From an uncultured Pelagibacteraceae bacterium (lineage in GTDB: Bacteria; Pseudomonadota; Alphaproteobacteria; Pelagibacterales; Pelagibacteraceae): a stretch of 64,000 nucleotides of DNA. The position numbers and the translations under genes were made by a program. Shown one piece after another: positions 35,007 to 44,690 of the stretch. The stretch lies in assembly GCA_902538495.1 (NCBI GenBank), contig CACBFJ010000002.1:62001-126000 (forward strand), read 5' to 3'. The notes beneath the pieces are model-generated. The model had not been told where the DNA came from. It made no database searches and saw nothing but the letters and a program-made list of their open reading frames with translations. Position 1 is the first letter of the stretch, and every line of letters starts with the position of its first letter.

Positions 35007-37244
35007 TTAATTCAATTTTAAGTCAAATCTGTCCGAATTCATTACTTTAACCCACGCTGCGATAAAATCGTTAATAAATTTATCTCCTGAGTCCTCACAT
35101 GCGTAAACCTCTGCTAATGCTCTTAATTGAGAATTTGACCCAAAAATCAAATCAACTCTTGTCGCTTTCCATTTAATTTTTTGAGTTTTTCTGTCTTTAC
35201 CGACAAAAGTCTGCTCTGATTTATCTTCTTCTTTCCAAGTGGTATTCATATCTAGTAAGTTTATGAAATAATCATTTGTCAGATAACCAGGTCTTTTTGT
35301 AAAAACACCATGTTCTGAATTGTCATAATTAGTATCTAAAACTCTCATTCCACCTATTAGAGCTGTCATTTCAGGCGCTGTTAAACCCATCAACTGAGCC
35401 TTATCTACTAATTTTTCTTCTGCAGAAACATTTGAAGCTCCACCATTCAAGTAATTTCTAAAACCATCTGCTTGTGGTTCTAGAAGGCCAAACGAATTAA
35501 TATCAGTTTGGTCTTGTCTCGCATCTCCTCTTCCTGCTGAAAATGGAACTTTAACTTTATAACCAGCTTTTTTTGCGGCCATTTCGACTCCAACACCACC
35601 TGCTAGTACAATTAAGTCAGCCATTGAAACACTTTTTTTATTACTGTCAAATTTACTTTTGATTTTACTCAAGGCTTTAATCACATTTGATAACTTCTTA
35701 GGATTATTAACTTTCCAATTTTTTTGGGGCTCTAACATTATCCTTGCACCATTAGCACCACCTCTTTTGTCTGATCCTCTAAAAGTTGATGCTGACGCCC
35801 AAGCAGTTGATACTAAATCTGAAACCGATATTTTTGATTTAGAAATTTTATTTTTCAAATCTTTAATATCTTTTGACTTGAGTTTATATTTTGGTTTATC
35901 TATTGGATCTTGCCAAATTAACTGTTCTTTTGGAACTTCACTACCAAGATAACAAACTCTAGGACCCATATCTCTGTGAGTTAATTTAAACCAAGCTCTT
36001 GCAAAAGCATCATGAAACTCTTTTGGATTTTGATGAAAATGTTTTGTAATAGGGCCATAACTTGGATCAACTTTCATTGAGATATCAGTTGTTTGCATCA
36101 TTGGTGGGTGTAGCACACCTTTCTTATGTGCATCAGGAACCATTTTAATTTCTTGACCATTTTTCTTAGGCGTCCATTGGTGAGCACCAGCAGGGCTTTT
36201 TGTAAGCTCCCATTCATGTCCATATAAACAATCTAAATAGCCCATGTCCCATCTAATGGGATTTTGAGTCCAGGCGCCCTCAATACCACTGCTTATTGTA
36301 TCAACACCTTTTCCAGATTTGTAACCACTATTCCATCCAGTAGACTGGTCTTGAAGTTTTGAGGCCTCAGGATCAGGACCCTTAAATGATTCAGATGCTG
36401 CACCATGCGATTTTCCAAACGTATGTCCTCCAGCAACTAATGCAGCTGTCTCATAATCATTCATAGCCATTCTGCCAAATGTCTCTCTAATATCATGTGC
36501 TGCAAGTTTTGGATCTGGATTAGCATCAGGACCTTGGGGGTTAACATAAATTAAACCCATATGTGAAGCACCTAATGGTTGTTCTAAATCTCTTTTTCCA
36601 CTATACCTCTCAACACCTAACATTTCTTTTTCCGAGCCCCAATAGATATCATCTTCTGGCTCCCAAATGTCTGTTCTACCAGCTCCAAAACCAAAAGTTT
36701 TGAAACCCATTGAGTCTAACGCAACATTACCAACAAGTATAAATAAATCAGCCCATGAAATTTTTCTTCCATACTTCTTTTTGATCGGCCATAAAAGCAA
36801 TCTAGCTTTATCCAAATTCACATTATCTGGCCAAGAATTAAGAGGAGCAAATCTTTGATTACCTGTTCCAGCTCCACCTCTACCATCACCAGTTCTGTAA
36901 GTTCCAGCAGCGTGCCAAGCAAGCCTAATAAAGAGTGGTCCATAATGACCATAATCAGCTGGCCACCACTCTTGTGAGTCAGTCATTAATTTTTTTAAAT
37001 CTTTTTTCAGTGCTTTATAATTGAGTTTTTTAAACTCTTTAGCGTAACTAAATTTTTTATCCATAGGGTTAGATAAATTTGAGTGCTGACTAAGAATTTT
37101 AAGATTTAGGCTATTAGGCCAAAAATCTCTCACCGTTTGTCCCCGCCCTGCAGAAAACTTTGCAGGTGTTCCTGTCCCCGTAAAAGGACATTTGCTCATT
37201 TGATTTGCTTTAAAAGATTTATCTTTAAAATTTTCAGTACTCAT
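35007..37244 (-). CDS. katG: Catalase-peroxidase
   Basis: [33 protein letters not shown], two-domain KatG length. Confidence 0.97.
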
Positions 37245-37339: not shown

Positions 37340-37738
37340 TTAGTCTTCTAGCTTAACAAGAACTTCTACAGATTTAATCTTTTTACCGTTTATTTTTTTT
37401 AAGATGTTTATTGGGCCTACATCAGAATTTTCTAAATCGATTAACTTTTCATCTTTTAAATCATAAAAATGATGGTGATCGGTAACATTTGTATCAAAAT
37501 AAGTTTGGTTTGAATTAATCGGGATCTGTTTAAGATATCCTTTTTTTTCAAAAGCATGAACAGTATTATAAATTGTTGCTAATGAAATTTTGTTATTTTT
37601 TTGTCTCTTAATTTTCTGATCTAGCTCATTAATCGTGAAATGAAATGTCTTTTCTGTATCAAATAAAACCTCACATATTTGAAGTCTTTGTTTAGTTGGT
37701 CGTAATCCAGAATTTCTTAATTTATCGATATATTTCAC
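37340..37738 (-). CDS. irr: Fur-superfamily regulator, Irr-like
   Basis: Fur-type winged helix (LRPTKQRLQICEVLF...ISLATIYNTVHAFEKKGYL), FDTNVTDHHHFYD with the Irr-like HHH motif, no C-terminal CxxC. Confidence 0.8.
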   Translation of the reverse strand: MKYIDKLRNSGLRPTKQRLQICEVLFDTEKTFHFTINELDQKIKRQKNNKISLATIYNTVHAFEKKGYLKQIPINSNQTYFDTNVTDHHHFYDLKDEKLIDLENSDVGPINILKKINGKKIKSVEVLVKLED

Positions 37739-39546: not shown

Positions 39547-40332
39547 ATGAGCTTGATGAAAGGTAAAAAAGGATTAATCATGGGAGTTGCTAATGAAAGA
39601 TCTATTGCTTGGGGTATCTCTCAGAAACTTTCAGAGGCTGGCGCTGAATTAGCTTTTACGTATTTAGGTGATGCTCTTAAGAAAAGAGTGGTCCCTCTAG
39701 CAGAAAAATTAAATTCAAAATCAACTTTTAGCTGTGATGTTGAAAAAAAAGAAGAGGTTGTAAAATTATTTGAGAATATCAAATCTCAATGGGGAGAAAT
39801 TGATTTTGTAGTTCATGCAGTTGCATTTTCAGATAAATCAGAATTATCAGGCGAATATTTAAATACAACTAGAGAAAACTTTTTAAGAAGTATGTTAATT
39901 TCATGTTTTTCATTTACTGAAGTAGCAAAAGAAGCGTCAAAGGTAATTAAACAAGGTGGAAGTTTATTAACTTTAACTTACGAGTCTACTAAAGCTATTC
40001 CAAATTATAACGTAATGGGTGTTTGTAAATCAGCTTTAGAAGCTAGTGTTAAGTATCTAGCTCGAGATTTGGGTGCCAAAGGCATGAGAGTAAATGCAAT
40101 AAGTGCGGGCCCTATTAAAACATTGGCAGCTTCTGCGATTGGAGATGCAAAATTCCTATATAAATGGAACGAAGACCATTCTTTTCTCAAAAGAAACGTA
40201 GATATCCATGATGTTGGAAATTCAGCATTATATCTATTAAGTGATCTCGCAAACGGAGTTACTGGTGAAATTCACTATGTAGATGCAGGCTACAATAAAG
40301 TAGGAATGCCTGATCCAAAAAATATAACTTAA
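39547..40332 (+). CDS. fabI: Enoyl-ACP reductase
   Basis: KGLIMGVANERSIAWGIS, YNVMGVCKSALEASVKYLARDLG, SAGPIKTLAA. Confidence 0.95.
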   Translation: MSLMKGKKGLIMGVANERSIAWGISQKLSEAGAELAFTYLGDALKKRVVPLAEKLNSKSTFSCDVEKKEEVVKLFENIKSQWGEIDFVVHAVAFSDKSELSGEYLNTTRENFLRSMLISCFSFTEVAKEASKVIKQGGSLLTLTYESTKAIPNYNVMGVCKSALEASVKYLARDLGAKGMRVNAISAGPIKTLAASAIGDAKFLYKWNEDHSFLKRNVDIHDVGNSALYLLSDLANGVTGEIHYVDAGYNKVGMPDPKNIT

Positions 40333-40334
40333 TT

Positions 40335-42575
40335 TTAATATAAGTTTTGTCTTGATTTAACAGCTCTTAACTCTATTAAGTTTTCGTGTCCAACACCATC
40401 TTTATCAATTCTACTAAATACAGATTTAATATTCCACCCATTATCTAAAAACCAATCAAATCCAGTTTCCAAAATAATCATTGAGCTAAAGTTTTTATCA
40501 ATAGTAGTGTTATATATGGTTGTGTTTCCAACATAGTTGGCTAGTATATCTGATCCATCTGTAAGGTCTTTATTAAAATCTAACTTAAAATAAGGTATAA
40601 ATAATGAGTCGGTAAGATAAATTTCTTTCTCAACAGCAGATCCTAAAGAAATTGATGATGTTTCAAGTTCTCTTTTATCAAATTTTAGCTTTGAACTACT
40701 GCTACCTGTTTCAGAATATCCATCAAAATTTACAAAACCAAAATCAAATTTGGAATAATTGTGAAATTTATAATTTTTATGGACATTCTTTAAATTATAT
40801 TTAACCGAACCAAAAATTTGATTTGCTTTAAATTTACCTTTAACAACGTTAGAAGGATTTGAGGTATCAACAACACGTGTTGTAGCGTAAGTAGTTTTTC
40901 CTATTCCCAAGAAAGAATCAATATAATTTTTTTCAGATCCTTGCCAGGTATTGTATAATGAAAAATTATCAGATCTTGCTAAAAACTTAGTACTATTCTT
41001 AGTGCCTATATTAGATCGATCATCTTCATGCCTTAAAACAAGTCCAAATAAAGAACCTTTATCATAGTTAACGTCTGCACCTACTAAAAAACTTTCAGTT
41101 CTATTAATTATTCCTAAATCACCACCTGAGGTAAGATTAAGTCTACCTTTATTAATTGATCCAGCTGTCCAAAACGCCCAATCTTTTGGCGTCATATTAT
41201 AATTTTCTTTTAAATATTTTGTTAATGGTAGTTCACTAATTAAATCATCAATATTTTTTGCAGATAAATTCTTATATTTATCAATGTAATAATCAAAGAA
41301 TTCTGGAGGTATTTGTTCTTTGTAATTATTTTGATTAGAAAGAGTCAATTTCATATCTTTAATTCGAGTTGATTTATTAATTCCAACTCTTCTAAACTGT
41401 TCCATTCTTCGCATAACTTGATTGGTAGTATTAAACATAAATCTCTTAGCATGTTCTGTTTGTGCGTTTACCATTCCACTTACTTGTTTATCATTGAACG
41501 CAGTGTAAGTACTGCCGCTAGCTTCAGTTGAATTAATTGTTAATGTTGTTTGACCGCTTACTGTTGCACTTTCACCAGCTGTTCCACCATATTCAATTAC
41601 ATACGCTCCAGTTGTATCATTTGTGCAATGTAAGTCATTCCATTTACCTTTTCTGCCTGATGGAGAACCGTACATATGAGCACAATTTTCATCCCCGTCA
41701 TATGCAGATGGGTGATCGTTAGGTTCATCAGTTAACCAATTTGCATAAGAATAACCTGATGCAACTGTGCAATCCTCATGTGCAGGATCTGCCTTATTAA
41801 CTCCTGGTGTTGTACTCTCAATTGCTACTTGACAAAAAAAAGTCTTTCCGTTTTCAGGTCCTGAAACCCATTCCCATGTACCTTCTCCTGCTCGAGCATT
41901 ACCTTGTCCTAAATCAAGACTTATAGCTGGATGGGTATTAGATGTATGTGTTGCATCATCAGATCCACCAATCCAAGTATTGGTACCAATTTTATTTTTA
42001 ATAAAATTATTCTCAGCTTCACTTGTAATTGTTACGAGATAACCTGTAAGACCTAAGTAAGTTGAAGCTTCTGCAGCAGTTTTTGCGTCTTCCCAATTAA
42101 TAGTTCCAGTTACAAGTTCATAGTAATGACCATTTCCTGAAAAATAATTAGTACCAGCTGGAGTTACAGCAACAGTAATAGTAGGAGATCCAGCAACGCC
42201 ATCGCCTTTAAATGATAATGTTGCAAGTGCATTATTAATATCATCTTGTGTTCCTCTAAAACCTATTTCTGTAAGAGAATTACCTGTACACTGAGAAGGT
42301 ACACTTGAATTATCACTTGGATAATTACAATAGCCCTGTGCCTGCATTAGATTTGTAACAGAAGTTACCTTTATATTTCCATCCGATGCTACTGCTGAAA
42401 CGAGGAGAGTTCCTGTATAACCGCTAATACTAGGTGTTGTTCCTGAGCTTGATAGTAAAACGAAATCAGTTGTATCAGTTGTTAAAGTTGAAGGCATAGT
42501 AACTGTGCCTGAATAAACTTTATTACTGTTAAAGAAAAATAATAAAATAATCAAACTTAAGACAGCAACTCTCAT
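40335..42575 (-). CDS. Autotransporter-like surface protein with C-type lectin domain and C-terminal beta-barrel
   Basis: Signal peptide; CTLD with WIGGSDD, WLTDEPNDHP (EPN), GKWNDLHC (WND); C-terminal half with alternating beta-strand pattern typical of autotransporter barrels. Confidence 0.85.
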   Translation of the reverse strand: MRVAVLSLIILLFFFNSNKVYSGTVTMPSTLTTDTTDFVLLSSSGTTPSISGYTGTLLVSAVASDGNIKVTSVTNLMQAQGYCNYPSDNSSVPSQCTGNSLTEIGFRGTQDDINNALATLSFKGDGVAGSPTITVAVTPAGTNYFSGNGHYYELVTGTINWEDAKTAAEASTYLGLTGYLVTITSEAENNFIKNKIGTNTWIGGSDDATHTSNTHPAISLDLGQGNARAGEGTWEWVSGPENGKTFFCQVAIESTTPGVNKADPAHEDCTVASGYSYANWLTDEPNDHPSAYDGDENCAHMYGSPSGRKGKWNDLHCTNDTTGAYVIEYGGTAGESATVSGQTTLTINSTEASGSTYTAFNDKQVSGMVNAQTEHAKRFMFNTTNQVMRRMEQFRRVGINKSTRIKDMKLTLSNQNNYKEQIPPEFFDYYIDKYKNLSAKNIDDLISELPLTKYLKENYNMTPKDWAFWTAGSINKGRLNLTSGGDLGIINRTESFLVGADVNYDKGSLFGLVLRHEDDRSNIGTKNSTKFLARSDNFSLYNTWQGSEKNYIDSFLGIGKTTYATTRVVDTSNPSNVVKGKFKANQIFGSVKYNLKNVHKNYKFHNYSKFDFGFVNFDGYSETGSSSSKLKFDKRELETSSISLGSAVEKEIYLTDSLFIPYFKLDFNKDLTDGSDILANYVGNTTIYNTTIDKNFSSMIILETGFDWFLDNGWNIKSVFSRIDKDGVGHENLIELRAVKSRQNLY

Positions 42576-42617: not shown

Positions 42618-44690
42618 TTAAACCAAAGCTTGTTTGATAGAAAGTTTTACCTTTCCTCTATCAAATCCAATTACTTTAACTTTTACTTCATCGCCTTCTT
42701 TGACAACATCAGTTACCTTAGCAACTCTTTTATCTGCAAGTTCTGATATATGAACAAGTCCGTCTTGTTTTCCTAGGAAATTAACAAATGCACCAAACTC
42801 CATAATCTTCATAACTTTTCCAGAATAAATTTTATTCAATTCAGCTTTGGCAGTGATATCTTTGATCATTTGCATAGCAATGTTTCTAGACTCTTCATCT
42901 GGAGCAGCAACTGTTACTATACCCTCATCATTTACATCAACTTTAGCACCTGATTTTTCAACTATCTCTCTTATGGTTGCTCCACCTTTTCCAATCACAG
43001 CAGCAATGTCTTTTTTATCAACATTAATTTTTTCCATTTTTGGAGTGTGTTTTCCAACATCAGCTCTTGAGGCTGATAATGCTTTATTCATCTCTCCTAA
43101 AATATGAACTCTTCCATCTTTAGCTTGGCTTAATGCCTGCTCCATTATTTCAAATGTAATACCTGTAATTTTGATATCCATTTGAAGAGAAGTAATTCCA
43201 TCTTTAGTTCCGGCAACTTTAAAGTCCATATCACCTAAATGATCTTCATCACCTAAGATATCTGATAAGACACTAAAATCATCACCTTCTTTGATCAAAC
43301 CCATTGCTATACCTGCAACTGGTTCTTTAATGGGTACACCCGCATCCATTAGTGCTAATGATGTTCCACAAACAGTAGCCATTGAAGATGAGCCATTAGA
43401 CTCAGTAATCTCCGAAACTACTCTAAAAGTATAAGGGAATGCTTCTTTTGATGGCAATGAGGAATGTATTGCTCTCCACGCTAATTTACCATGTCCTATT
43501 TCTCTTCTACCAGTTCCGATTCTTCCTGTTTCTCCAACTGAAAAAGGTGGAAAATTATAGTGAAGCATGAATCTTTCTCTTTGTAATCCATCTAAACTTT
43601 CAATTCTTTGCTCATCATCCGATGTGCCTAAAGTAGCTGTCACAATTGCCTGTGTTTCGCCTCTGGTAAATAATGCAGAACCATGGGTTCGTGGTAAAAC
43701 ACCAACTTCACAAGATATAGGCCTTACATCAGATAATCCTCTACCATCAATTCTGTTTTTATTTTTTAAAATGTCTGTTCGAACTATTGATTTTTCTATT
43801 TTTTTAAGTTCAGAATTAACATCAAGATCTGTAAAATTTTCATCCTCCTCATAAAGTTTTTTAGCTTTATCAGTAATTTCTGAAATTTGATTTGATCTAT
43901 CTTGTTTATCTCTTGTTGCAAAAGCTTTTTTAAGATCTTCTGTGAAAGTTCCCTCAAGTTTTTTCTTAACTTCTGATAGGTCTTTCTTTTCAACAGTCCA
44001 TTCAGGTTTTCTACATTCTTTTGCAAGTTCCTCGATCATTTCAATCACAGGAACAAAACCTTCATGACCAAATTTAACTGCATTTAACATCTCTTCCTCT
44101 GTTAAACCGCTCGCTTCAGACTCAACCATAAGCACTGCATCTTTAGTACCCGCTACAACTAAGTCTAATTTTGATTTTTCAAGCTCATCTTTTGATGGAT
44201 TTAAAACATATTTTCCATCAATATAACCAACTCTAGAGGCTCCAACAGGGCCCATAAACGGCATTCCTGATATAGCCAAAGCTGCTGATGAAGCTGTAAT
44301 TGATAAAATATCTGCCTCATTTTCTTTATCGTAAGAAATGACAGTTGGTAACAACTGAACTTCATTTTTAAATTCATCAGGAAATAACGGTCTGATTGGT
44401 CTATCAATTAATCTGGAGATTAATGTTTCACTCTCGGTTGGTCTTGCCTCTCTTTTGAAATACCCACCTGGAATTTTTCCTGCAGCATAGTATTTTTCCT
44501 GATAATTTACAGATAGTGGAAAATAATCAACATCAGGATTTACTTTTTTTGCTCCCACCACTGTTGCTAAAACAACTGTTTCTCCACATGACGCAATTAT
44601 TGCACCGTCTGCTTGTCTTGCTACTTTTCCTGTTTCTAAACTTATCTTCTTTCCTGCTACTTCAATTTCCTTCTTATATACTTTAAACAT
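42618..44690 (-). CDS. pnp: Polyribonucleotide nucleotidyltransferase
   Basis: Two RNase PH domains, [12 protein letters not shown] domain, C-terminal S1 domain. Confidence 0.97.

Follow-up and report, generated by a model that had tools for sequence, protein, structure and literature searches.

A C-type lectin domain on a predicted SAR11 autotransporter, with an invariant putative calcium site and signs of replacement in several lineages

SAR11 bacteria are the commonest cells in the sea and are regarded as non-attaching organisms that scavenge dissolved nutrients. Among the outer-membrane adhesins of other bacteria, the type Ve proteins intimin, invasin and YeeJ can end in a C-type-lectin-like domain; their barrel is N-terminal, whereas that of the SAR11 lectin protein described here is C-terminal. 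In SAR11 itself, autotransporters were reported in 2007 in hypervariable region 1 (HVR1, PMC2217521), and a large autotransporter adhesin encoded beside type IV pilus genes in coastal SAR11 was published in 2025 (PMC12636525). The gene for this coastal adhesin is about 5-9.5 kb long, compared with 2.2 kb for the lectin autotransporter gene, and the word "lectin" occurs in neither of the two papers. A non-exhaustive search of the literature combining SAR11 or Pelagibacter with lectin returned titles and abstracts without a description of a lectin autotransporter.

The gene studied here lies in a stretch of 64,000 nucleotides, hereafter the window, from a SAR11 genome of the Pelagibacter genus (966 kb in 26 contigs, 86.5% complete), whose near relatives are Pelagibacteraceae single-cell genomes and metagenome-assembled genomes. 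Its features are collected in Table 1. The lectin gene follows pnp on the same strand after 42 bases, in which no terminator-like site was found, and ends 2 bases from the convergent fabI. Elsewhere in the window, a catalase-peroxidase-like protein (35007-37244) adjoins a Fur/PerR-like regulator (37340-37738), both named by sequence reading; to our knowledge, catalase is often said to be absent from SAR11.

Table 1 Features of the lectin autotransporter gene and its neighbors in the window (aa, amino acids; CTLD, C-type lectin domain).
Feature	Position	Strand	Basis
Lectin autotransporter, complete gene, 746 aa	40335..42575	-	ORF list, Pfam, sequence
Predicted signal peptide, aa 1-22	42510..42575	-	Sequence MRVAVLSLIILLFFFNSNKVYSG; modelled helix 2-15
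N-terminal beta-rich domain, aa 23-142, including C83/C96	42150..42509	-	Model, alignment
CTLD, aa 143-333	41577..42149	-	PF00059 aa 176-320; profile match to solved C-type lectins
Insertion with additional Cys pair C248/C269	41769..41840	-	Sequence, alignment
EPN, aa 284-286; predicted Ca2+ site-2 ligands E284, N286	41718..41726	-	Alignment, 57/57
E296, presumed counterpart of MBP-A E193	41688..41690	-	Alignment, 57/57
WND, aa 312-314; predicted Ca2+ site-2 ligands N313, D314	41634..41642	-	Alignment, 57/57
Linker, aa 334-460: long helix aa 363-397, then short helices up to the barrel	41196..41576	-	Model
Autotransporter beta-barrel, aa 461-746	40338..41195	-	PF03797 aa 468-715; Foldseek
pnp	42618..44690	-	ORF list; name by sequence reading
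fabI, convergent	39547..40332	+	ORF list; name by sequence reading

An earlier note, made from the letters alone, had read this gene as an autotransporter displaying a C-type lectin domain, and this observation was borne out. In the window protein, Pfam recovers both Lectin_C (PF00059, 28.9 bits against a cut-off of 22.6) and Autotransporter (PF03797, 84.4 bits against a cut-off of 26, covering positions 1-249 of the 255 in the family), and both families match all nine orthologues searched. The predicted signal peptide at the N-terminus (sequence and model), the passenger that follows it and the C-terminal position of the barrel are those of a type Va autotransporter; an assignment to type Ve, the inverse autotransporters, was rejected, as the barrel is not N-terminal. 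The N-terminal beta-rich domain has no Pfam match. A weak match to a phage single-stranded DNA-binding domain (15.2 bits against a cut-off of 27) was dismissed.

A structure model built from 44 sequences (pLDDT 77), superseding one built from nine (pLDDT 56), contains a signal helix, a beta domain, CTLD-like elements, the long linker helix and the barrel. The strands and helices of CTLD type mostly have block means of 70-93; loop 210-230 reaches only 46-66, and the stretch aa 402-452 is of low confidence. Foldseek placed EstA first among its best matches, followed by AaaA, NalP and EspP, and also matched BrkA; all 50 matches listed for the full-protein model are barrels, and none represents the CTLD. 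The profile of the 44 homologues matches solved C-type lectins (CD23 first at 6e-9, then ASGPR, MBP-A at 3e-6 and DC-SIGN) and also the EstA autotransporter (8e-8). The earlier note would have given up its reading had the predicted structure lacked a CTLD fold or a barrel, or had EPN and WND varied among orthologues; Pfam domains, CTLD-type model elements and barrel were all recovered, and both motifs are kept in 57 of 57 SAR11 homologues.

The coordinates that it gave for EPN and WND are exact, and every motif that it quoted (WIGGSDD, WLTDEPNDHP, DENCAHMYG, GKWNDLHC, FFCQ, HEDC and AYVIEY) is found in the reading frame. Its account of the cysteines needs an addition. The only cysteines in the protein are at positions 83, 96, 248, 269, 298 and 317. 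The fourth canonical CTLD cysteine is missing, as claimed, and so is the first, which the note overlooked: the DAKTAAEAS helix aligned with its position has no cysteine. Because both are missing, the outer disulfide (C1-C4) is entirely absent, and of the two canonical disulfides the window protein has C2-C3 (C298/C317), PF00059 membership not calling for both. The extra pair in the insertion is real, C248 and C269 being conserved in 50 and 47 of the 57 homologues, respectively.

The putative Ca2+ site was followed through an alignment of these 57 SAR11 homologues, which span identities down to about 37%. E284, P285, N286, E296, W312, N313 and D314 are each invariant (57/57), and the entropy at the five site-2 ligands (E, N, E, N, D) is 0. 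By alignment, we take these five to be the equivalents of E185, N187, E193, N205 and D206 in site 2 of MBP-A, with P285 presumably the cis-proline and W312 the WND tryptophan of such a site. The loops beside the ligands vary more than the barrel, with a mean entropy of 2.16 bits at 287-295 and 2.13 bits at 315-324, compared with 1.66 bits. C83/C96 of the N-terminal domain is also found in 57/57, and the inner CTLD pair C298/C317, which lies near the Ca2+ site, is kept in only 28/57. Both search patterns used (ATLSFKGD and [AY]Y[IV]IEYGG) lie outside the site, so its invariance was not produced by the selection of the set.

EPN and WND also occur in distant CTLDs from Actinobacteria and from giant SAR11 proteins. 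A relative in Enterorhabdus (L124:3389-8179) has QPD, which in animal lectins goes with galactose, in place of EPN; the wider family is thus not confined to EPN. On the strength of the invariant site and of what is known of animal lectins, Ca2+-dependent sugar binding is predicted for the SAR11 domain, with EPN pointing to sugars of the mannose, GlcNAc or glucose type. Conservation of the ligands can also reflect stability. Overall, the SAR11 protein probably holds a Ca2+-dependent sugar-binding domain out from the outer membrane.

The lectin autotransporter is carried by a minority of SAR11. An alignment search found a passenger-region match in 34 of 399 genomes of the Pelagibacter genus, a set in which many genomes are incomplete and a few of the matches are CTLDs within other proteins. 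Prevalence was taken from this search because a genome-wide search with PF00059 failed to detect even the window's own gene. One genome per species (GTDB) was also scanned, which yielded 68 loci (58 in SAR11); viral contigs, when scanned, gave no relatives.

The gene occupies several unrelated chromosomal sites. The pnp/fabI site holds the window gene and about 20 other loci, and homologues are also found between lpxB and gltX. Others lie between a pilY1-like gene and a gene for prepilin peptidase, with a pilin gene close by (L093, L094, L096, L097, L099 and L100), between genes for a transporter permease and an Asp/Glu racemase-family protein (L095, L098, L111 and L113), or in arrays adjoining other autotransporters (L080, L081 and L108). 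At the pnp/fabI site of G036 only 56 C-terminal codons are left, 91% identical (L012:1501-1668), a remnant that reads as loss through deletion. In L098 (3908-6074) the gene is broken into two overlapping frames within the CTLD, apparently by a frameshift or an assembly error.

Other proteins carry similar lectin stretches. Four proteins from SAR11, 1730-1912 aa long and pilin/PilX-like at the N-terminus (KGFVLVFVIAVVSALS), contain two EPN...WND stretches apiece (L130:3008-8725, L131:2922-8657, L132:2839-8550 and L133:2375-7564); in L130, the one tested, Laminin_G_3 and CBM_5_12 matched and Lectin_C stayed below its cut-off. They hint at lectin display by a second system, linked to pili. In Burkholderiales LSUCC0115, a flagellin (L126:3053-5782, with Flagellin_N and Flagellin_C) has a central EPN...WND stretch. 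The passenger-search match in G371 coincides with a SAR11 protein of 628 aa that has a prepilin methylation motif (L129:2373-4256).

Domain-by-domain identities conflict between the CTLD or passenger and the barrel. L097 and L100, both at the pilY1 site, have barrels that are 98% identical and CTLDs that are 48% identical; their DNA is 97-100% identical across 2.4 kb upstream and 98-100% over most of the barrel, compared with 46-64% in the CTLD. The reverse holds for L093 and L097, which have the passenger in common (synonymous difference 0.02-0.03) and unlike barrels (0.24). Similarly, the barrel is common to L095 and L111 (95%) and the CTLD is not (49%); in L111 and L113 it is the passenger that agrees (synonymous difference 0.05-0.06) and the barrel that differs (0.63). 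L086, at the pnp/fabI site, has a barrel 93% identical to that of L075 and a CTLD 88% identical to that of L090, an lpxB/gltX-type protein whose own contig is too short to reveal its site. L088, L092 and L114 differ chiefly in the CTLD, the synonymous difference between L088 and L092 being 0.38 there and 0.10 elsewhere (p = 3e-12).

The window gene takes part in the same pattern. Compared with L065 and L073, its CTLD has no synonymous differences (0/180-184) and the remaining gene has 11%. Against L071, the synonymous difference is 0.31 in the CTLD and 0.13 in the remainder, and DNA identity falls from mostly 95-100% in the flanks to a valley of 73-76% over the CTLD. When synonymous codons alone were scanned, the altered segment coincided with the CTLD or the passenger, and for the main pairs none of 200 shuffles attained the observed value. 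AU tests rejected barrel-based pairings on CTLD data, and vice versa, with p-values that are optimistic because the pairings were picked after the identities had been seen; for the CTLD placement of L080/L081, p was 0.225. These sequence comparisons show that diverged versions have repeatedly taken the place of the CTLD or of the whole passenger in several lineages.

SAR11 recombines widely, and the flanking genes served as a control. At the pnp/fabI site, across pnp, the lectin gene and fabI, pnp itself contained the segment with the most synonymous differences for 99 of the 135 pairs, which means that this neighborhood often recombines or diverges to a variable degree; the CTLD had the widest spread relative to its mean (0.90, s.d. 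0.55). Among lpxB/gltX loci, the CTLD had the highest mean excess in group A (1.59) and no excess in group B (0.73). The idea that the CTLD is always a recombination hotspot was therefore rejected, and the claim is restricted to several lineages in which the CTLD is an outlier. The hypervariability that the earlier note proposed to look for between strains was accordingly seen in several lineages and was missing from one lpxB/gltX lineage.

We consider it likely that the gene product is an adhesin of the type Va autotransporter class whose Ca2+ glycan site is functional and whose lectin head can be exchanged. A fast-evolving CTLD under relaxed or positive selection, with no exchange of cassettes, would account for the lineage without CTLD excess and for the slightly raised dN/dS of the CTLD, relative to the barrel, in many pairs; synonymous sites change abruptly along with the others, in both directions, and the domain trees conflict, with rejection by AU tests, which makes this explanation very improbable. 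Error-prone reverse transcription by a diversity-generating retroelement (DGR), a kind of element that regularly has a C-type lectin fold as its variable region (PMC8144416), deserves hardly any credence: no reverse transcriptase (PF00078) was found in the 86.5%-complete genome by a search that was positive in control genomes, and the changes, which form shared blocks, include synonymous ones besides replacements.

Replacement might also be driven by escape from phages, with the passenger a phage receptor or a phage-exposed decoy, and not by a change of ligand. An exposed domain replaced between nearly unchanged flanks fits predator-driven diversification, and pelagiphage proteins with lectin domains are themselves hypervariable (PMC10504331). 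Pure escape does not predict five invariant metal ligands, and the scan of viral contigs brought up no relative; we know of no link between a lectin autotransporter and a phage receptor role, and regard this reading as rather unlikely. That the CTLD is a structural or protein-binding tip, as in intimin and invasin, with a Ca2+ site that contributes to stability and recognizes no sugar, is likewise unlikely. Many CTLDs are generally known to bind proteins, and a beta domain followed by a CTLD resembles adhesin tips; here, the full sugar-type site (EPN...E...WND) is invariant and the scaffold disulfides are not, the opposite of what a purely structural role would lead one to expect.

Under the preferred reading, that of a lectin adhesin, the signal peptide would carry the protein across the inner membrane, the C-terminal barrel of 12 strands would insert into the outer membrane, and the passenger (N-terminal beta domain, then CTLD) would be kept outside the cell; the architecture suggests that the protein is exported by the autotransporter route and displays its CTLD. 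The CTLD would bind Ca2+ through E284, N286, E296, N313 and D314, and a sugar, most likely of the type given above, would be held through its vicinal hydroxyls by the bound ion. The loops around the invariant ion vary by lineage, and recombination with a diverged copy would replace the CTLD or the whole passenger, altering the ligand and retaining the export machinery and the chromosomal site. The ecological role may be to attach the cell to glycans, whether on particles, on algae or on other cells; the earlier note had suggested possible contact with particles, phages or glycans. More tentatively, and with somewhat less than even confidence, SAR11 may share a pool of lectin heads that pass between species by recombination and enter an unchanging autotransporter frame at a small number of fixed sites, their diversity being maintained by selection on ligand choice.

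If so, a supposedly free-living oligotroph would possess an exchangeable glycan-recognition system. Near-identical cells may recognize different sugars, owing to a swapped CTLD around an unchanging Ca2+ site. The search for glycan contact gains a specific and testable motive from the predicted, conserved Ca2+ sugar site of a protein presumably displayed on the outer membrane, and the replaced versions are natural variants for mapping ligand to sequence.

Like DGR-diversified proteins (PMC8144416), the SAR11 protein has a diversified recognition domain, of predicted CLec fold; unlike DGR targets, it varies by block replacement, with no reverse transcriptase found. With the type Va autotransporters EstA, AaaA, NalP, EspP, BrkA and AIDA-I it shares a signal peptide, an N-terminal passenger, a helical linker and a C-terminal barrel, and it differs from them in a passenger made of a globular beta domain and a CTLD instead of a beta-helix or an esterase. 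With animal C-type lectins (the collectin/ASGPR/DC-SIGN group; MBP-A, CD23) it shares the CTLD and the site-2 ligands in EPN, E and WND; in contrast to them, it has no outer disulfide, a cysteine-bearing insertion and a bacterial outer-membrane barrel as its mount. New in comparison with these systems are the invariant site-2 ligands, the several unrelated chromosomal sites and the repeated replacement of the lectin domain or passenger.
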